From NCBI RefSeq assembly GCF_025602895.1, contig NW_026516250.1:1-64000 (forward strand): 64,000 bases of DNA, written 5' to 3'. Within the stretch, counting starts at the first letter, position 1. Every line of letters starts with the position of its first letter. The notes beneath the pieces were generated by a model. It was not told where the DNA came from. It worked only from the letters and a program-made list of their open reading frames with translations, and made no database searches. This DNA is from Polychytrium aggregatum (lineage: Eukaryota; Chytridiomycota; Chytridiomycetes; Polychytriales). Below are positions 1-42,304 of the stretch, one piece after another. The position numbers and the translations under genes were made by a program.

Positions 1-482
1 GTCCAGGCCGATGCCCTCTCGCCGACCGGGGACAATGAGAAATACAACAAGCAGCTGGTTGATTCTTTGGCATCTACCAGTCCGTCCGACACCCTGGCTT
101 GCCTCCGGCCCTCGTCTACCTTCAGGAACTAGTGGACACCTCATCGGCATTGCAGTTCAGTCCTATGCCACCAACTGAACCACCCGCCTCAACCTGGCCT
201 ACTGGAGACTCCTTCGTCGCTTCTGTGCTGCTGTCTTTCCTGCCAACGAGCACAGAAGCGACGAATGAGTCTCCTGTAGGCCAGGTTGAGGTGCGTCGTG
301 CAGTTGGTGGCATAGGACTGGACTGCAATGCCGATGAGGTAGTGACGAGCACCATCAGGCAGACGAGGGGCCGGAGGCAGGTCTGCGTGCCGAGTGGTCT
401 GGTAGTCGCCAAAGGAAGCGATCAGCTTCTGCTCGTTGTATTTCTCATTGTCCCCGGTCGGGGAGAGCGCACCGGCCTGGAC
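1..482. repeat. Large inverted duplication inside the Fanzor relic
   Basis: Positions 1-229 and about 249-482 are reverse complements of each other around a 19-base spacer (230-248). Next to the spacer, 191-229 pairs with 249-287 at 37 of 39 positions; outward matches continue through CTCATCGGCATTGCAGT (148-164) to the window edge, so the left arm may extend beyond base 1. Both arms derive from the same Fanzor coding segment (compare the intact-order version at about 19150-19420), so a piece of the gene was copied in reverse next to itself. The arms differ by scattered substitutions, so the event is not brand new. Confidence 0.85.
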
Positions 483-902
483 GATCTTGAAGCACTGGCG
501 GATGAATGCAGGGGTGGCCTGGATCTTGCCTCAGAGGTCGGGATTGAGCCACTCGTTGTACTCGTTCTTCCAGAAGAATCTATCCATGGTCTGCTTGAAG
601 CAGCTGTATTGGGGGTCGGATGTCCTGCCATCTTCCATGAGAGGGACAGCGGGGCTCTTGAGGGGCCGGTAGTTGGGACAAGCCTTGCTCGAAGCCCGAG
701 AGTGACCTGGGAGCTGGCATGAAGCAACAGACAGGACCAGTGGCCGTTGTAGCAGCAGCAGTGTCGCTCGAGGGACCGGGTTCGGTGGTGTCGACATCCA
801 TCGACTCGGCAGGAAGCTCGTGGGTGTGGGTGGCATGGCCCTGGTTGCGGAGCGTTTGGGCCTGGGTGGCCGAGAGGGACCGCCCTTGCGCTTCGGAGGC
901 AT
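1..902 (-). pseudogene. Fanzor (TnpB-like nuclease) 5' region, degenerate, copy A
   Basis: An ATG at 902 opens a frame starting MPPKRKGGPSRPPRPKR, the same start as the longer copy at 19985. The frame is broken: MDVDTTEPGPSS has slipped to another frame, a TGG-to-TGA change ends the frame after WLNPDL (near 531), and about 110 bp carrying the helix block seen in copy B as IQFEASRLLNLHILR is missing. Homology then continues through TPAFIRQCFKIVQA and ATNCTTHLNLAYRRL until it turns round in the inverted duplication. Family assignment rests on copy B and the linked RuvC-type tails of copies B-D. Non-functional. Confidence 0.62.
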
Positions 903-1150
903 GGGAACAGAGGATGCTGGATGCTTGCCAGTGGTACTGGTCAGAACAGAGACGTTTCTTTATCGTACAATAGCGCGATGATCAGATCAAGGCGAGATGA
1001 GGGAAGAAAGCAGCAGGACGAAGGTGCGGCATTTATACCCGAGAGCAGGAGCCCGTCATTGCGGGCTGATTGGGGAAGCGACCCTGTTCAAAAATCGCCG
1101 AGAGGTTCAAGACAGGGATGTGAACGGGAAAATGGCGGCTTGATTGGAGG
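903..1150 (-). promoter_or_regulatory. Conserved spacer with TATA box upstream of Fanzor, copy A
   Basis: The spacer between the transposase end and the Fanzor start is nearly identical to 19986-20216 of copy B: about 7 differences across the roughly 195 bases compared. On the minus strand it holds GGGTATAAATGCC (TATA box complement at 1031-1037), about 130 bases upstream of the ATG at 902. The likely role is promoter and 5' untranslated leader of the Fanzor gene. Its conservation exceeds that of the coding part downstream. Confidence 0.55.
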
Positions 1151-1154
1151 GAAC

Positions 1155-2071
1155 TCAACCCCAGAAGCGCATCGCTCGCTCAATCAGTCGTGGGAAGACA
1201 TCTGGAAGCACCCTCCGAACGGCAGACTCAAACAGGGTCACCATCCCGATCTTGAACCCCTCGGACGCATTCAACGCTGCTGCCTTCCTGTACTGATGCT
1301 TCACAATCCCAAAGAAGTTCTCGATGGGATTGAAGTCGGGTGAAGCAGGTGGGGTGAAGATCACTGACCATCCTCGGCGCTCGATGCAGTCCAGGACAGC
1401 CCTTGTCTTGTGCATGCTGACATTGTCCATCACAATCACAGAGTCGTCTGGGAAGCTCGCTCGCTCAAAGAACTCGACCATCGAGTGTGTCTTGAATGAT
1501 GTGGGGATGGATGTACATGCGATGCAGCACACCAGAGTGGTTGATGGCAAATGCAGCCGAGACAGACTTGTGTTTCATGTGATTGCGCTGGCGAAGCGGA
1601 GCACCCTTCGGTGAGTATCCGTAGAGAGGGAAAATGGATTTCCTGATCCCTGTCTCGTCGACAAAAACGAGCCGTCGTGGGTCGATGGAGCGGACCTGGT
1701 CCCTGAACTGTGCCACTCGCTCATCCAGTCGCTTGGACTTGTAGAGGTGTGTTGCCCTCTTGTGTGAGAGACCTGCTCGGTGGATGGCAGTGTGGCAGAG
1801 TGAGAGTGATACTTTCCTCTGGAGGATGGACTCGAGCTTGCATCGCAACACAGGACCAGTCTGGAACGGGTCCTGTTCAATCAGGGTGCGAATGACTGGA
1901 CATGCCTGCTCGAAGAAAGTGGATATGCGGGCTGGGACTCGGGGTGACTCGGTTGGCTTGTGTCCTCGGTGCCATCGATGGATGGTGCTCTTGGATACAC
2001 TGAATATGGAGGCGAACTTGCGCAAGCTGCGGAGCAGCGATGCGGAAATCGAGGGTGCTGTGCTTGGCCAT
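1155..2071 (-). pseudogene. Tc1/IS630-like DD34E transposase, frameshifted
   Basis: Cut-and-paste DDE transposase. Visible parts in order: a start MAKHSTLDFRIAA (ATG at 2069-2071); an HTH segment LRKFASIFSVSKSTIHRWHR in a second frame; the catalytic block with first Asp in LVFVDETG; then, in a third frame, VIVMDNVSMHK (second Asp) and SPDFNPIENFFGIVK (Glu). Exactly 34 residues separate the second Asp from the Glu, the Tc1/IS630 DD34E spacing. One frameshift lies near 2035-2050 and another near 1480-1500. The C-terminus ends LPDVFPRLIERAMRFWG at 1155. The triad is present but the reading frame is broken, so this copy should be inactive. Confidence 0.85.
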
Positions 2072-2138
2072 GGTTGCAATGAGTGGGTGGGTGGGTGTAT
2101 TCAGGTCACAGAAACACCCTGTCGGGTCACAGTACCAG

Positions 2139-2164
2139 GGTGTCCCGTTTTTTATTGGATTGCC
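2139..2164 (-). repeat. Terminal repeat of the Fanzor-bearing element (transposase end)
   Basis: The 26-base stretch with core TGTCCCGTTTTTTATTGG recurs as its reverse complement at 41664-41688 with almost no change, and in diverged form at 24141-24162. It sits about 70 bases before the transposase start, where a Tc1-type terminal inverted repeat is expected. Confidence 0.75.
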
Positions 2165-2366: not shown

Positions 2367-5287
2367 ATGCGTCTCTTCAATCTCACCACCGCCAAGGTCG
2401 AGGAATACGATGTTCTCGATCCCAGCAAGCTGCCCAAGTTCGCCGCTGTCTCCTATGTCTGGGCCGATCCCAAATCGTCCTCAGCCGCCGGCTGGCAGAC
2501 CATGGCCATGCCAATCGGACCTGACCAGTCTCCCGCCCCGCAAAGCCAGCTCTCGGCTCCACCAGTCTCCCGCCAGCGGTCCTCCTCGCCGTCCCGTCTT
2601 CCCGCCCAGCCGCAGACCCAGCAGCGCCAAAGTGCCGCCACCTTCACGTCGCCCTGGAAAATCTTCAGCTGCTCGTCGCAGGAGCTTCTGGGCGCCATCA
2701 CAGCAATTAAGAAGGCGCTGACCGAGCCCTCGGATCTCAAGAATGCCAGCGAGACCATCGAGGAGCCCCCGGTTCCGAAAGCGACGCACATCTGGATGGA
2801 TGTCCTGTGCATCAACCAAGGTATGCCTCTCTGCCGTCCGTCCGACTGACGCTCCCAGATGGCTTGTCGTCCGCACCACACCTCGACTCGGTGTCCGCTC
2901 TGCCTGCGTAGAGTCTTGCAGAAGACCGCAAGCTCCATCCCCTCGCTCCACATTCACACACACACCCAGCGAGTGCTGCTTCGCTAATCTCGCATTCGTT
3001 TCTGTCTGCAGACTCACTCGAGGACAAGCAGAAAGAGGTCCAGAACATGCGATTCTACTACGGAAAGGCAGCGTGCGTCTTCACCTTCCTGGATGTCCTT
3101 GGGGTGCCGAGTCTGCCGGTGACCCCCAAGGGCCCCGCCAAGTGGTTCACACGGCTGTGGACGCTCCAGGAGTGCATTCTTCCCGACAATCTATTCATCT
3201 ACGTTGATACTCCTTCCCAGGGACCCCGGTGGCTGTCCCGATCGACGACCTGTGCTCTCATCGCCGGTCTCGGCAGCTTTGGCATTTGGTCTCCTCCCTC
3301 CGAGGAAGCTGCCACCGTCGCTGCCCAGCAGCTCCAGGCCCTGGCCATCCGCTCGCCGTCGATCCACACCATCATTCCGCTTGCCATGTGCCGCAACGTT
3401 CGATTCAAGCACGACCGCTTCTACGGCATCATGGGCCTGCTGACCGAAAAGTGGGTCAGTCACTCAAAATTCAACTACGATCTCAACAAACCCGCAGAGC
3501 ATGCTGCCTCCCAGTTTGCCCGCGCGCTGACACCCCAGGGCATCGAGGCCTTTGCCCTGTTTGCACCGTCATACGCCAACATCTCGTCGGTGCCGCAGAT
3601 TGTCAAAAGCGTCGTCAGTGCCACTGGTGGGTCCAGCGCCGAGAAGAAGCCCCAAGCCCCTCCCGTCGCTCCTGCTGCTGGCCCGGTGACCCAGCCTCCG
3701 TCGCCCATATCGCCGGCTGCAGTGCTGCCGACCATAGCCCAGGTGCAGGAGGTTGGCTCGCGAGGGCTGTCGACCCTGGTTGCCAGCGCAAGAGATTTGA
3801 CAACGTCTGCATCGGTTGCTGTCAGCACCTCGACGCCAACTACTGCACCAGTTGCGGCCAAGACAGCGACGGGGCCTCCCGCTGCCAAGACCCCAATTGC
3901 AAATCCCACAGCTGCCAAGACCCCAGTTGCAAATCCCACAACTACCAAGGCTCCTACTTCAACTTCCACAACTGCCAAGACCCCAATTGCAAATCCCACA
4001 ACTGCCAAGGCCCCAGTTGCAAATCCCACAACTACCAAGGCTCCTACTTCAACTTCCACAACTTCCAAGACCCCAGCTGCAAATCCCGCCGCTGCCAAGG
4101 CTCCAGCTGCACCGCAGGTCGCCAAACCCACTTCCACCAACCCCACGGTCAAAGCGCCGGCTCCATCAGCCAATGCGGGCAAGCCTGCAGTATCCCCGCC
4201 CTCAGCCCCCGCCCGAGCTGCAGCAACAGCCAAAGCTCCAACACCAGCACCAGCACCAGCACCAGCTACAGTCCCAGCCATATCCATCACCAAACCGCCA
4301 GTTGCTGCACCCGCCACGGCCGTTGCCCCGGCTGCCGATACCAAGCCAGGCGAGACCCAACCTGCAGTTGACAACCAGAGCCCGGACACTACGCTCAATC
4401 AAGAGTTTTCGTGGTTCGCCAAGTTCTCCACCCATTCGTATATCGTCGGAGGCGTCCCCATTGTCCTGCCGCGTGAAGAGGCCCTTTATTATCTCGAGAC
4501 GGGACAGCTCCATCAGCAACTCGGCACCGAGTCCCCCAAGAGCACCGTCAGCTACCGGGTCACCTCCCGCGGCGTCGAGCTCACCGGCACGGTGACCAAC
4601 CAGATTGCAGCGGTCCAGAACCTCGAGGGCGTTGCCACAAAGTCCTTCGAGTATATTGGCGAGCGGTTCGAGAAGGCCAACTACATTGCCGACATTGCGA
4701 TGCTCCTCGTGGGCTTCCATGTGCCGAAGCAGACGGTGCTCTGGGGACTGGGCGAGGCCGGCCGGGCCGTCCAGCAGCCCACTGAAGACCAGACAACAAT
4801 CTCGGGCGCTTGGAAGAGCTTCCGAGGCTGGGTCAAGGACACGGTCATCAAGTCCAGCATTCCTCTCCTGGAGATGCTCGACCGAGTCATCTTCTCGGGT
4901 TACTACCCGAGCATCGTTGACACCTACCAGATCTCCCTCGCCAACGGCAGCGTCCTCATCGGCCGGCTGACGCCCTCGCCAGAGCTGCTGGAAATGGCCG
5001 AGTGCCAGCGGAAACGCGAGCAGTGGGAGCAGGACGACGAAGATGCCCGGCCTGCTCCTCCCAAGCCCTTTGGCAAGAAACTGTATCTGACCTACATCAA
5101 GCGGAGTGTGTACTCGGTCACGGGCTGCGCTGAAAACAAGACCGACCTGTATACACTCTGCTGCCAAGAGGGCGAGTTTGACGGCCAGAACCTGCGGGCC
5201 CGCAAGATCGGTGTCTTCCACGCGACAGAGATCGTGTCCCCCAAGAAGACCAGCACGTTCGATATCAAAAAGGTCATCATCGTCTGA
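2367..5287 (+). CDS. HET-domain protein with long repetitive linker
   Basis: Two exons, 2367-2820 and 3012-5287 (intron GTATGC...TGCAG), give 909 residues. Residues 1 to about 310 carry HET (heterokaryon incompatibility) landmarks: FAAVSYVWAD, then WMDVLCINQ, which the intron splits before DSLEDKQKEVQNM, then WFTRLWTLQEC. About 85 low-complexity residues interrupt the domain after FAAVSYVWAD. Residues about 354-608 are an Ala/Pro/Thr-rich linker with tandem units of the type AKTPIANPTTAK. The last 300 residues are a globular region I do not recognise. In filamentous fungi HET domains signal non-self recognition and cell death; the role in a zoosporic fungus is unknown. The gene starts about 200 bases from transposon copy A. 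Confidence 0.8.
3880..4125 (+). repeat. Coding tandem repeats in the HET protein linker
   Basis: Imperfect 30- and 60-base units, such as those encoding AKTPIANPTTAKAPVANP and [16 protein letters not shown], repeat several times with near-identical DNA. Units this similar can change copy number by slippage or unequal exchange. The linker is predicted to be unstructured. Confidence 0.8.
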
Positions 5288-5837: not shown

Positions 5838-7452
5838 ATGTCGGCCCCGCCTCCCGCACTCGATCCCGCCAACGTCCAGTGGCTGCTTCACTATGGCCGT
5901 CGGTCGATTCTTCCCCGCTGCGTCAACTCCACCAACATCAAGACCATGACCTTCCCCGACAACCTGGGCGACATCCTGTACGCAAGCAACCGCTGCATGC
6001 CTCGGGCATGGATCGACAACCGCACGGCCACCAGCTACGCCTATCTTTCTGTCGTTCCCGCCGCCGGTCGCATCTATCTCAGCGACTGCGGCCGGAACTC
6101 ATCCTGTCGGGCAGGATGCACCGTCGCCGCTCAGTTCTCCACACACACCTTGGATCCGTGCACAGCCAGCTTCTTCACAGGGGCCTACAGCAACAGTGAC
6201 TATCTCTCGACCGAGTGAGTCACTGTCGGTGCGATGCTGGCTGGCCCAGGGACGCGGGATATCCCCGGATGTCGGGATTTGATGGATGGAGAGTCGCTGG
6301 ATACAGCACCGATCGATTGGGAATCGCTGGACAATATCCCTTGGCCCCTGGCATCCCCCGCTTCCAAGTGGGATGCCTGTCCATGTCGGGTCTAACTGAT
6401 TTGCATCTCATGTTCGTCTTCCTTTCCGTCTTCTCGGCTGTCGTTGCCCTCGCCTCTTGCATCGTAGCCTGTGGGACCCAAACTTCAACACACCGTATTT
6501 CGCATACATTACAAGGAGCTTTGGCGACTCGACCTGTGCCAACGTCAGCCTTGCTATTCGGAACCCCATCTACCAGAACTGCACCAAGATGCCGGACGGG
6601 AGCTACAGCGTCTACTCCAACACCGAGACTCCCGGACTGGTCTTTTGGAGTCGCAGCAGCGATGCAAACTGTTCAACCAACACCGGCGGCATATCCAGAT
6701 TCACCATCAACACCCGCTGCAGCTCCAGCCAAAGTTCTGGCCTTCTTGTTGGTGGATACGAGCAGGGTCCGCTTCTCAACGTTCCAAGCCTCAACCTTTC
6801 GGCCCGCATGCCTGCGTCACGACCACGGCCACTCCCGCCGCCATCATACCCGTCGGGATACTCACCTCCGATCGGCCTCATGGTTGGGCTTGTTGTCGGG
6901 CGTAAGTGATTTGTTGCTCGGTGGACACCGCAGTCCATCCGGGATGCCCTTTGCTCGTCTCGATAGCACGCCGCCCCGGAGCACCCGATTCTGCTCGATG
7001 TCGTTCGTATCTGACTCCACATTCCCTCACTACAACATACCCCAGCGCTGCTTCTCTCCGTCGTCATCTTCACCATTCGCAAGTTTTCAAGTCTTGGCGC
7101 TCAAAGCGCTTTCAACTTCCAGCAGTCTAATTTTGGTCCAATGGTCATCGATACCCTCCCACGCTACACGCAGCAAGGATCAGCTTCAGAAACCGAGCCG
7201 CCTCCGCCCGCAAGACCGTCACCGCCGCCATACGCAATGGACGCCGACAGCATACCCGCTGCTTCGTATGAGCTTTCCGACGTTCGGAGACAGCAGCAAC
7301 CCGCATCACTTGCACTTGACGGCGAGCCGCCAAGCTACGGCATGCTGTATTCTAGTGAAGATGGAACTGTCGCCGAGCCACCTGCTTCACCAACCGGATC
7401 GACGGACAATATCCTGCGGCCGGCAGGCGACCGCAAGTCGGCGAATGGCTAG
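5838..7452 (+). CDS. Single-pass membrane protein with Cys-rich ectodomain and PPxY tail
   Basis: Three exons (5838-6214, 6468-6901, 7046-7452) give 405 residues. The N-terminal 260 residues are Cys-, Asn- and Ser-rich with N-glycosylation sequons such as CVNSTN, GRNSSC and CANVSL. One membrane segment spans the exon 2/3 junction, IGLMVGLVVG continuing PLLLSVVIFTIRKF, followed by a Pro-rich tail with SPPPYAMD (about residue 332) and EPPSYGML (about 364). Both are PPxY motifs, which bind WW domains of NEDD4/Rsp5-type ubiquitin ligases. No clear signal peptide is visible at this start; the ATG at 5727 adds a Cys-rich stretch that is not a good signal either, so an upstream exon is possible. Family unknown. 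A surface protein sorted by ubiquitin is an inference. Confidence 0.65.
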
Positions 7453-7901
7453 CCTCAATGCAACCGTTGGTTTGGGCCAGCCCGTTTGTTATCCAGGCGC
7501 AAAGGGTCTGCGACTACTGCGCTGGCTGTCAGAAAAATACAGAGCACGCCGGAGCGGATGATGCCCCGGCGCTTCCCCGTGGGGATGATGGACAGAGAAA
7601 CAGCGGCTCCAGCCCCATTGCGTTCTGGGGACATGATTCCATGGTGATGGCAAAGGCAAACTTGGGAGGACAAAGCCGCGCCACGCGGCACCGCCACGAG
7701 CCAGCCCAATCAATATTCCCATATATGGAGGGGAGATCCATGTCGGTTTCGGCGGTGCTGTTTCGTTTTGGTTCGGTTCGTTTCGATTCGGCCAGCCCAG
7801 GCGTCCTCTGTCGCTCCTTCCGGCTCTATCGACTGCATCGACTGCATCGACACCAACAGACTGCACCTTTGCTTCATTCACCTCGAGCGCTTCCAGCCGC
7901 C
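7453..7901. other. Intergenic, 449 bp; promoter region of the next gene
   Basis: No gene recognised. Short direct repeats occur at 7768-7795 (GGTTCGGTTCGTTTCG) and 7829-7850 (GACTGCATC units). Upstream of the ATG at 7902 lies pyrimidine-rich sequence typical of a fungal 5' region. Confidence 0.4.
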
Positions 7902-18712: not shown

Positions 18713-18729
18713 TCGATTGATGGTCCCTC

Positions 18730-19985
18730 TGTGCACACAGCCGGAGGAGTGTCGAGAGCGAGCTGCTTGAGGGCCCAGTTGATCCTGGATGCCAGCTTGT
18801 TGATCTTGGCCTTGGTGGTGCCGAGCTCCGACTTGGCCGTGGTGAACCTCTTGTCGTCGGAGGGGATGCCTCGGGCAGTGAGCTCGTCCAGCTTGGCCTG
18901 GCGCTGCAACTCGGTGACTCGGAGGGCGGGCATGTCACAGTCGATCCACTTGTGGACATTGTCGACCATCTTGTCTCGGGCGAGGATTCTCACATGGTGT
19001 GAGAGGCGATGGAGGGCCCGGAAGCGGTCCTGGTCGTTGCTGTACCGAAACTCGTCCAGGACGTGGCCAAAGTCTGGATAGAGGAACTCGATATCGGCCT
19101 TGGGTGGAGTCTGCCCTGGTTTCTCGAAGAGCTCGAGACAGGCCTCGATGGCTTCGTGCTTATGCTTGTTGGCAGGGAAGACAGCAGCACAGAAGCGGCG
19201 AAGGAGTCGCCAGTAGGCCAGGTTGAGGTGGGTGGTGCAGTTGGTGGCATAGGACTGAACTGCAATGCCGATGAGGTGTCCACCAGTTCCTGAAGGTAGA
19301 CGAGGGCCGGAGGCAGGTCTGCGTGCCGAGTGGTCTGGTAGTCGCGAAAGGAAGCGACCAGATGCTCGTTGTATTTCTTGGTCTCCCTGGCCGTCGAGAG
19401 GGCATCGGCCTGGACGATCTTGAAGCATTGGCGGATGAAAGCAGGGGTGGCCTTGGAGATGACGGGGATGGGAAGATCCTGCTCGATGCACCGGAGGATA
19501 TGTAGGTTGAGCAGCCTGGATGCCTCGAACTGGATCTGGGTCATGGCTGCGACAGTAGCCTGGATCTTGCCCCAGAGGTCGGGATTGAGCCATTGTTTCT
19601 TTGCATTCTTCCAGAAGATGCCGTCCATGGTCTGCTTGAAGCAGCTGAACTGGGGGATGGATGACCTTCCATCCACGAGTGGGACGACAGAACTCTTGAG
19701 GGGCCGGTATTTGGGACATTTGCTGGTGTTGCAACGTTCGTGATCGGTGCCATCGCACTGGCGACATCGCTTGCCGGTACTCGAGGAAGTAGATGGACCA
19801 GGCTCGGTGGGATCGACATCCATTGGATCTGCAGAAGCAGTGGTGGTGAGCGACGGAGCAACAGACGACCAAGCATGCGTGGGATCAGAAGACGAACCAG
19901 AGACAGGCTCCGACTGTGACTTGGCTTTCTTGGGCCTGGGTGGCCGAGGCTGGCCATCACCGGCACCCTTGCGCTTCGGAGGCAT
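18730..19985 (-). pseudogene. Fanzor 5' half, frameshifted, relic B2
   Basis: The ATG at 19985 opens a 331-codon frame: a basic Pro-rich start, a Cys/His cluster (CRQCDGTDHERCNTSKC), FKQTMDGIFWKN, then IQFEASRLLNLHILRCIEQ and PAFIRQCFKIVQADAL. Near 19280 the homologous reading moves to another frame, GHLIGIAVQSYATNCTTHLN, AYWRLLRRFCAAVFP, and continues to ASRINWALKQLALD near 18760. The pattern (helical block with LLNLHILR, then TNCTTHLNL before a charged segment) fits the N-terminal recognition region of chytrid-type Fanzor1 proteins; this is my inference from memory of the family. The RuvC half is missing, replaced by relic B1 in opposite orientation. Confidence 0.6.
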
Positions 19986-20216
19986 GGGGACAGAGAATGC
20001 TGGATGCCTGCCAGTGGTACTGGTCAGAGCAGAGACTTTTTTTATCGTACAATAGCGCGATGATCAGATCAAGGCGAGATGAGGGAAGAAAGCAGCAGGA
20101 CGAAGGTGTGGCATTTATACCCGAGAGCAGGAGCCCGTCATTGCGGGCTGATTGGGGAAGCGACCCTGTTCAAAAATCGCCGAGAGGTTCAAGACAGGGA
20201 TGTGAGCGTGAAAATG
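19986..20216 (-). promoter_or_regulatory. Conserved spacer with TATA box upstream of Fanzor, copy B
   Basis: About 96% identical to 903-1140 of copy A, including the TATAAAT complement at 20113-20119, about 130 bases upstream of the ATG at 19985. It is the strongest DNA match between the two copies. Probable promoter and leader of the Fanzor gene. Confidence 0.55.
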
Positions 20217-20437
20217 GCGGCGTGATCGGGGTGGCTCGACCCAGGATTGGAGGGACTCAACCCCAAATCGGTGGTGACTCAACCCCAAATGCTCTCCCAT
20301 GCTCAATCAGTCGGGTGAAGACATCTGGCGATGCGAAAGTCGGTTGTGCGGCGAATGGTCATGGCCAACACGCGATGGTATTGAGTAACAAAATATTTGA
20401 TCAATGGTCAAAATCAAGGGTGTCCTGTAAGAACCCG
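20217..20437 (-). mobile_element. Internally deleted Tc1/IS630 transposase remnant, copy B
   Basis: On the minus strand a 5' end (element start near 20437, ATG near 20362, reading MTIRRTTDFRIA) is joined straight to the transposase C-terminus, which in the next frame reads PDVFTRLIEHGRAFG, matching PDVFPRLIERAMRFWG of copy A. About 0.9 kb of transposase is deleted. The 5' segment (20330-20430) also matches 41682-41765 of copy D in reverse orientation. This shows the same gene order as copy A: transposase end directly before the spacer and Fanzor start. Confidence 0.7.
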
Positions 20438-23899: not shown

Positions 23900-24162
23900 A
23901 TGTCAGACCCTTCACCAAGAAGTGCACAGCCATACGCTGTGGGATCGAGACATCAATGCAGCCAGGAACATGATCTCGGTATGCCAGTCGATCATCACCA
24001 CAGGAGATCGGCCGGGTGTATTCAAGACTGTGCTTCCCAAACCAACCAAAACCACACGATTGCCAACGAAGACAGGAGTGCAATGCCATGGCCTGCCCGC
24101 TGGGCCTACAGTCAGTCAGCGGGCATCTGAAGCCAGGAAGTGTCCCGTTTCTTTCTGGATTG
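23900..24162 (+). pseudogene. Fanzor 3' end with RuvC motif and terminal repeat, relic C
   Basis: Encodes LWDRDINAARNM (about 23937-23972), the C-terminal RuvC catalytic motif of TnpB/Fanzor (the Asp of DRDxNAARN), then SVCQSIITTGDRPGVFK and a basic tail LPKPTKTTRLPTKTG. The element's terminal repeat TGTCCCGTTTCTTTCTGG begins at 24141, about 10-20 bases after the Fanzor end. Everything 5' of the motif is missing. The 3' end of Fanzor genes is where the guide (omega) RNA is normally encoded, so this fragment may preserve part of that region. Confidence 0.8.
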
Positions 24163-24605
24163 ACTGTAAGTATCTTGTTCATTTCGACAGTGGATGCCGG
24201 GTCGCCCATATTCTGGGCAGTCCACTTCGGGGTTGCCATCCCTCTTGGGATGGTCGATGGGAGGTGTTTGACTCCCTTGTGCAAAGTGTGTGTGTGTGAC
24301 GGCGAGAGGCTTCTCGCCTTCCCTCGGGGGTCTCTCGCCAGAGACTGCTCTTCTCGCCGACCGAGGTGGCTCCGAGAGAGCGTTTTTTCGTTTTCGCTCA
24401 TTTTTTTGGCACGGGAAAGAAATGGTGCGGTCCGTTCGCTTCTCAAAACGCTGAAGAAACGCATTTTTGCTCCATCGATCACCGCCCCGTCAGCTTGGAG
24501 CAAACCCCCGCTGTGGCACGCCAATGCATGATCGCTGCAGCTGCGCGGGTATCCACATTGCATCATATTCCAGACAATATATTCCGTTGGGCCGCAGTGG
24601 TATGT
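24163..24605. other. Intergenic, 443 bp, no gene recognised
   Basis: Contains an imperfect palindromic cluster around 24298-24360 (GGCGAGAGGCTTCTCGCC and nearby TCTCGCC repeats) and a T-rich stretch at 24385-24410. It lies just beyond the fumarase stop and could form stem-loops in its 3' region. No gene is supported. Confidence 0.4.
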
Positions 24606-40913: not shown

Positions 40914-41663
40914 ACGGGCGAGGCACCAGGAGGCATGGATAGACAGCTCTGCGCTTTCCCGGCCCCACCCTCAAGCGCAACCGCACTGAGGGACATGCCC
41001 GCAGCATGCTGCAGCCCGGTTCGCGGAGATGTCGGCTGTCGCTATCCTTTAGAGCCTCCCTTCCCTTTTGCCGTTCTCTGCTGTCTCTCGTTCAACACCA
41101 ATGCCCACAACCATGAACTGTTTCAAGCATTCGTATTTCAAATTTTGCACCACAAAGCCTCCCCTCTGCACAAGCCTGGCGCCCGACTTCAGCCCAAACG
41201 CCTTTGGTCCATTTCCCAGGGGTGGCCTCGCTCCATCTTCTCTGGCCGGCTGGCTGGCTGGCTCGTCCCCAGTAGGATAGCAACACTCGCCAGCCACACC
41301 TGCCTCGAGAACCCCTCTGCTCGTTGCTGCACATATCCTCTTGCCGTTGTCTTTGCTCGTTTGTTCCGTTACTGTTTTGCTTGCTTTTGTGTCGAACCCA
41401 TTGTGATTCCATTCCGGCGTCCTACCCCTACCTCGTACCGACTCGCTCATCCGACTCGCTCATCCGGCGCACCGAACCAACCCGGACGTCCTTCTTCCGC
41501 TGCTGCTTTCGTCACGGCGGCACATGCTCCACCCAACTCCTCTTCCTCTTTCCTTGCTCCAGATGATCTGCTCAATGTAGAAATTGATCCTCCTCCTCCT
41601 CTGTGCACTCGTGAGAATGATGATTGGTAGGCACATTGGTCAGACGTAAGGGGTGCTTTACAG
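40914..41663. other. Intergenic, 750 bp, no gene recognised
   Basis: Follows the BTB gene stop. A pyrimidine-rich stretch with GGCTGGCTGGCTGGCT at 41248-41264 and CCGACTCGCTCAT direct repeats at 41438-41464 are the only notable structures. The 231-codon frame across it has no recognisable features and is Ser/Pro/Phe-rich. Confidence 0.4.
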
Positions 41664-41964
41664 GCAATCCAATAAAAAACGGGACACCCAGGTTTTGACC
41701 ATTCATCGAATATTTTGTTACCCAATGTTATCGCGCGCTGGCCATGACCATTCGCCGGACAGTGTGGAATCGCGACGTCAATGCGGCGCGCAACATGATC
41801 ACAGTATGCAGGTCGATTGTGGAGATCGGAGAGCGACCGGCGGTCTTCACTCGGAGGCTGCCAAAGTGATCTGTTTTATTTCTTGTGGCTTTGCTTGACG
41901 CAAGCACAGCACATACTACATGTTCATGAAAACGGCTATGTTGTCCCGTTTTTTTTTTCTGAAT
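41664..41964 (+). mobile_element. 300-bp mini-element: Tc1/IS630 end fused to Fanzor tail (copy D)
   Basis: Bounded by inverted ends: left 41664-41688, containing AATAAAAAACGGGACA, and right 41942-41964, TGTCCCGTTTTTTTTTTC. The first 80 bases match, in reverse, the transposase 5' end of copy B (20330-20430), including ATGACCATTCGCCG; the element then switches directly to the Fanzor C-terminal motif. Nothing else of either gene remains. Size and ends are those of a MITE-like non-autonomous derivative that could be mobilised by a related transposase. Confidence 0.72.
41763..41869 (+). pseudogene. Fanzor C-terminal fragment, relic D
   Basis: Encodes VWNRDVNAARNM, then TVCRSIVEIGERPAVFTRR and LPK before a TGA. 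It matches the RuvC tail of copy C (WDRDINAARNM ... IITTGDRPGVF). Asp and the NAARN core are kept. Only about 35 codons survive. Confidence 0.78.
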
Positions 41965-42304
41965 AAAGTGTAGTGTATTGATCAAGGGCTCATTCGAAGG
42001 AAAGATAAGATCAGAGCAAGGGGGTAAGGAAGGCGGGGCGAATGTACATATTCAAAACTGCAGCGACTGGTGCACAAGACAGGCTTTGGTGTACCGTCGA
42101 GGGAGCACTTGGGCTCGCTTGTTGCCCAGTGAGGGCTACGAACTAGATACAGAAGGGCGATCCAAGGAGCCAAAAATTACGGAGACAGGAAAGGAGGAGG
42201 GGGTATGTCATGGGGTTCTGTGGGTGGGATGTGGTGGGGAAGCGCACCGGGTTGAAGCAGGCAATCACAACAGCAAGTACGTTGTCAGGGGCAGGTCAGA
42301 CTAG
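41965..42304. other. Intergenic, 340 bp
   Basis: Between copy D and the stop of the metalloprotease (-). Contains AATAAAG at 41963-41969 and G/A-rich sequence. No gene recognised. Confidence 0.35.

Follow-up and report, generated by a model that had tools for sequence, protein, structure and literature searches.

The window, meaning the whole 64-kb stretch of Polychytrium aggregatum DNA that was analysed, begins with a broken Tc1/IS630-Fanzor element, of which the 5′ portion is present on the minus strand (1–2164); Fanzors are related to CRISPR nucleases. Along that strand, a left inverted repeat (2164–2134) is followed by a transposase gene (2040–1158), a spacer, and the N-terminal region of a Fanzor from position 902, which bears out the series of terminal repeat, DD34E transposase, TATA-bearing spacer and Fanzor 5′ region described at 2164–1 in the initial annotation. 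Because the window begins at base 1 of its contig (C362), this copy has no right end. The terminal repeat (2134–2164) matches bases 6–36 of the intact copy L051 at 93.5%, with its outermost bases diverged. In tblastn searches, the transposase (1158–2040) was recovered in two frames, residues 18–194 at 2040–1510 (91%) and residues 194–310 at 1508–1158 (97%); the frame switch at residue 194, near position 1509, identifies it as a pseudogene. Its two pieces matched PF13358 at 1.7e-4 (below the family cut-off) and 4.9e-15. The intergenic spacer (903–1157) contains TATAAA at 1037–1032, upstream of the Fanzor ATG. The Fanzor region (216–902) is degenerate (46% over residues 1–268) and ended by the contig start. 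In blastn, positions 1–254 of the plus strand and the Fanzor segment at 249–520 matched the same stretch of other copies in opposite orientations. The contig thus starts with an inverted duplication, which may have arisen as a fold-back during assembly. The copy at 1–2164 is dead.

Three further pieces of the family lie in the window. A second minus-strand copy (20428–18721) has the same gene order and confirms the reported recurrence of transposase end, spacer and Fanzor start. Its left end (20327–20428) is 86% identical to bases 22–123 of the intact element; most of the transposase is deleted, leaving only the 3′ end, and the remainder (18721–20229) comprises this spacer-side end, the spacer and the N-terminal half of the Fanzor (residues 1–412; 91.5% over 1501 bp), for which tblastn matched residues 1–217 and 190–412. 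On the plus strand, 41659–41972 is a short internal-deletion derivative in which the left 100 bp are joined to the right 216 bp (96% to element bases 1–100 and 3524–3739). It has TA duplications at both ends and a T before the left TA. The third piece (23930–24165, plus strand) belongs to a related subfamily, here termed B to distinguish it from the main family A, and represents its right end, with a Fanzor C-terminus (66.7% amino acid identity over Fanzor residues 753–788) and an inverted repeat. The related terminal repeat originally noted at 24141–24162 lies within it.

Intact two-gene copies elsewhere in the genome

The assembly searched contained 64.7 Mb in 418 contigs, and the candidates counted here are first-look matches rather than confirmed copies. 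The 321-bp junction between transposase, spacer and Fanzor (880–1200) returned 393 candidates; all 40 that were scored matched over bases 1–321 or 4–321, comprising the window itself and 39 others at 95–96% identity, which places the association of the two genes beyond chance. Six 8-kb stretches around the best junction matches were fetched and yielded four elements of 3739–3745 bp and two that were internally deleted. Complete elements (~3.74 kb) are bounded by imperfect inverted repeats, and the four begin TA-CAGGC and end AAAGTG-TA. The two genes of a complete element share one strand, a 310-residue DD34E transposase first and a Fanzor1-type protein of 788–790 residues downstream of it. Both frames are open in L049 and L051, and the second (Fanzor) frame is interrupted in L048 and L050. 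Among 13 fetched distinct elements, both frames are intact in six (L049, L051, L054, L055, L057 and L058); the set is biased, seven members (L054–L060) having been chosen by Fanzor score, and 6/13 should not be taken as representative. TA is present at both ends in five of the six (L049, L051, L055, L057 and L058), and L054 has lost its outermost left bases. The predicted Tc1/IS630-Fanzor family with intact copies elsewhere is thereby supported, with the two genes found together in intact elements.

Profile searches placed both proteins in the expected families. The transposase matched PF13358 (DDE_3; 7e-23) and has the DD34E triad D145/D221/E256, in which 34 residues separate D221 from E256. 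The downstream protein matched PF07282 (1.7e-9). Its D537, followed by 178 residues, TS, the C720 finger and RD757–758, fits the published Fanzor1 motif D-X(125–275)-[TS][TS]-xx-C4 finger-RD (PMC3627910). It also has DPG at 537 and E713, with six residues before C720 of the C4 finger, and DPG with a glutamate about six residues before the finger is common to Fanzor1 and Fanzor2 (PMC10711439). The whole protein matched no PDB entry at E 0.01. Its last 273 residues aligned below significance with SpuFz1 (8gkh; E 0.058) and GtFz1 (9cer; E 0.71); the weak SpuFz1 alignment is collinear and stops no more than one or two residues short of each C-terminus; we treat it as a lead only. From its sequence, we infer that the protein would be an RNA-guided nuclease, the label first given to it.

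A search with the Fanzor protein (P0001) gave 57 scored places of 1323 candidates, and the match was stop-free in 50. When these 57 were paired with 128 scored transposase places, 17 stop-free Fanzors had a full stop-free transposase, 14 Fanzors adjoined a shortened or stop-bearing transposase and 26 had no scored transposase; these counts include haplotype duplicates, and the class of 26 may be a scoring limit. Among the 128 transposase places, 32 matched only residues 1 to 261–267 of 310 (one with a stop), so that the match breaks off shortly after the catalytic glutamate E256. Since some of these shortened transposases adjoin stop-free Fanzors, a lineage with a defective transposase may have been spread in trans.

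The 315-bp derivative is also multicopy. All 40 scored places of 1151 candidates matched the sequence at 41659–41972 (the window's own included), 28 from first to last base and 12 without 1 to 11 left bases by an eye count. Likewise, the subfamily B right end was matched in 40/40 scored places (again with the window's own) of 641 first-look candidates. No relative was confirmed in viral contigs, in a search from which records of the same or a very near genome may be left out. The contig pairs L011/L012 and L009/L010 are 98–99% identical over several kilobases, and seven of nine insertion sites were found on a second contig too. From both observations, the assembly seems to hold two haplotypes, with the sampled insertions mostly in both, and copy counts are correspondingly inflated. 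In L055 (3972–4187), an A element has a short subfamily B element immediately adjoining its right end, and an 11-bp direct repeat (TATTCTTCGCA) takes the place of a plain TA duplication.

Insertion sites and selection on both genes

TA was present on each side in all nine sites chosen for clean ends; L060, outside this set, has CA on the right. At left junctions matched by end pattern, TA was present in 53 of 54 distinct cases, and seven further left ends with altered termini, read by eye, comprised three with TTA and four without TA. The base preceding the left TA was T in 51 of the 53 distinct sites and A in the other two (p 4.5e-44), against a background of 12.3% T before TA within the window. 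For this count, copies with two or fewer mismatches over 14 flanking bases were merged; the merged pair L029/L138 differs at −1 (G, T) and was counted as T, and L044/L066 differs in the TA itself. The 53 include 20 short derivatives (17 distinct by eye), all of which have the T. On the right flank, the bases after TA are even, with A at +1 in 8/37. An origin of the left T within the transposon was considered and rejected, since the T lies outside the TA duplication, and inspection by eye found no longer shared duplication around the two ends.

Subfamily B has a weaker form of the same asymmetry. Of 27 left flanks read by eye, 23 were distinct: 12 with T, three with C, two with A, two with an extra base between TA and the element end, and four with an unreadable end. 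Among the 17 with TA directly before the end, the T frequency (12/17) is below that in A (Fisher p 0.008) and above the 12.3% background (p 4e-8). Subfamily B is the more decayed of the two, so the difference may be one of age.

By analogy with SpuFz1 of Spizellomyces punctatus, the left-only T-TA has the geometry of a Fanzor target-adjacent motif. In that fungus, the left repeat is preceded by a conserved CA, and these two bases open CATA, the tested and required motif of SpuFz1 (PMC10432273). A later paper (PMC11423790) has CATA and TTAA swapped between SpuFz1 and GtFz1, and the original report is followed here. Together, the left-only T-TA and this parallel lead to a predicted target-adjacent motif of 5′-TTA.

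The joined flanks of the nine sites were used to look for empty alleles. The search gave 57 candidates, of which 40 were scored; no empty allele was among these, and neither excision nor homing could therefore be observed. The presence of seven of the nine insertions on a second contig also fits plain old fixation.

Selection was assessed in 23 copies chosen by junction DNA, after removal of haplotype pairs recognised by their left flanks, and the N/S counts cover only element bases 88–1017 and 1273–2780, the second stretch being about the 5′ two-thirds of the Fanzor. For the transposase, N/S was 0.19 for variants present in at least two copies and 0.49 for single-copy variants; the corresponding Fanzor values were 0.27 and 0.50. 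Counts in the wrong frames gave 0.87–1.88, and these partly mirror the third-position signal, so they mark out the true frame and do not provide an independent neutral value. Shared stops were absent from the Fanzor frame, compared with 4 and 12 in its wrong frames, and one was present in the transposase frame. In the last third of the Fanzor, pairwise dN/dS was 0.36 and 0.21 (seven and eight copies), in a set in which EL and L051 are the same copy and haplotype pairs were retained. These data show that purifying selection acts on both the transposase and the Fanzor, and the latter looks to be maintained by natural selection. Stronger constraint on propagated variants is what would be expected if both genes matter for propagation, and the selection could reflect a role of the Fanzor in transposition itself. 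In the copies of the pairwise set, element bases 2432–2620, within the Fanzor, are ~10% divergent between copies, compared with 1–6.5% elsewhere, as if two allele types recombine.

A predicted role for the Fanzor in element retention

We read these elements as a high-copy Tc1/IS630 family that carries its own DD34E transposase and a same-strand Fanzor1-type nuclease, with Fanzor-guided retention at TTA sites, and give this reading a probability of roughly two in three. The steps proposed are as follows. The transposase would cut the element out at TA. The ~100-nt right end past the Fanzor stop, with host DNA beyond the element end, would be transcribed as a guide RNA, and the Fanzor and its guide would recognise the emptied donor site, or an empty homologous allele, beside 5′-TTA. 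Cutting there would lead to repair that copies the element back, so that correctly oriented copies at TTA would be retained. Short derivatives that retain the right end, as in the 216 bp kept from the right compared with 100 bp from the left, could profit in trans. We infer both the RNA-guided activity and the retention role of the Fanzor in this scheme. Over six stretches, folding of the putative guide RNA was modest, with z between −2.5 and +0.2, and a search of the L051 element against Rfam returned no family. The A and B right ends were compared for compensatory changes; the B side consisted of two sequences only, and we therefore make no claim of covariation.

The left T could instead be an orientation-dependent target preference of the transposase, reflecting inverted repeats that differ, with the Fanzor motif a co-evolved match or unrelated. 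The two repeats are indeed imperfect and unlike each other, and in subfamily B, which has a related left end, the T is again enriched (12/17; p 4e-8). However, Tc1-type targets are usually symmetric about TA, and the A at +1 in only 8/37 right flanks is unlike such targets. The similar left-only bases in SpuFz1 are its tested motif (PMC10432273), which also speaks against the transposase as the source of the T. We regard this explanation as unlikely, while still the most serious of the alternatives. Purifying selection alone names no function, and the Fanzor might be cargo that aids transposition or regulates the element in another way, for example as a DNA-binding regulator, and be selected for that rather than for cutting the donor site. 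Such a role appears improbable, as the three RuvC acidic residues are kept in all eight full-length fetched Fanzors, which would be needless for binding only, and the flank asymmetry has the geometry of a target motif. Finally, frameshifted and stop-bearing Fanzor copies exist, as might be found for a passive passenger whose low N/S came only from the copying of a few source elements. Constraint is strongest in the variants that are shared among copies and have thus been propagated (N/S 0.27, no stops), and this makes a mere passenger very improbable.

Fanzor-guided retention may extend to drive, an idea published for bacterial TnpB in plasmids (PMC11870625). Here, cutting of emptied and empty-allele sites would act as both filter and drive in a eukaryote, setting survival by a left 5′-TTA, placing insertions on both haplotypes and letting derivatives with the guide end ride along. 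This is a tentative proposal, to be held with less confidence than retention. The many copies, intact gene pairs, selection, guide-end derivatives and motif prediction, together with the transposase-shortened copies beside stop-free Fanzors, open the retention and drive ideas to direct testing in a eukaryote. Little is said to be known of what Fanzors do biologically (PMC10711439), and this family could help to reveal their role for the elements in which they reside; it is also the source of a further candidate nuclease, with TTA as its predicted motif.

Related elements

Elements of this kind have been known since 2013, when the mariner elements PGv-1 and PUl-1, with a transposase and Fanzor1, were published by Bao and Jurka (PMC3627910). 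They share with the P. aggregatum family a Tc1/mariner transposase and Fanzor1 in one element and TA duplications. According to that paper, PGv-1 is present as a single copy and carries a GIY-YIG nuclease in addition (PMC3627910), whereas the P. aggregatum element consists of two genes and occurs in many copies, several of them intact, and selection on its genes was measured. SPu-1, the carrier of SpuFz1, resembles it in its TA duplications, repeats of roughly 30 bp, conserved bases before the left end, gene-less short derivatives ("ghost" elements, comparable to 41659–41972) and, below significance, a weak C-terminal protein match. However, SPu-1 carries only the Fanzor, in 19 full-length genes (PMC3627910), whereas the P. 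aggregatum element has its transposase on board, and the motifs differ, CATA for SpuFz1 (PMC10432273) and a predicted TTA here. IS607 TnpB and Fanzor2 have in common with the present protein the DPG and the displaced glutamate but reside in serine-recombinase transposons (PMC10711439). The P. aggregatum family stands out for how many of its two-gene copies are intact and for the asymmetry of its flanks. Among the open-access titles and abstract starts listed, none described a Tc1-Fanzor family that has two genes, many copies and selection on each gene.

PF01385 was tried as a Fanzor probe and rejected; it matched a separate Fanzor2/IS607-like family and is consequently no marker for the Tc1/IS630-Fanzor element. 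Members of that family lie at L009 2311–3744 (minus) and 6198–7631 (plus), with similar DNA in L010–L014 and L016. Its 477-residue frame begins with ~75 residues that by eye resemble the start of IS607 TnpA, a MerR-type helix and the beginning of a serine recombinase, fused in frame to TnpB. In both L009 and L010, two IS607-like copies, 99.9% identical, are inverted in divergent orientation.
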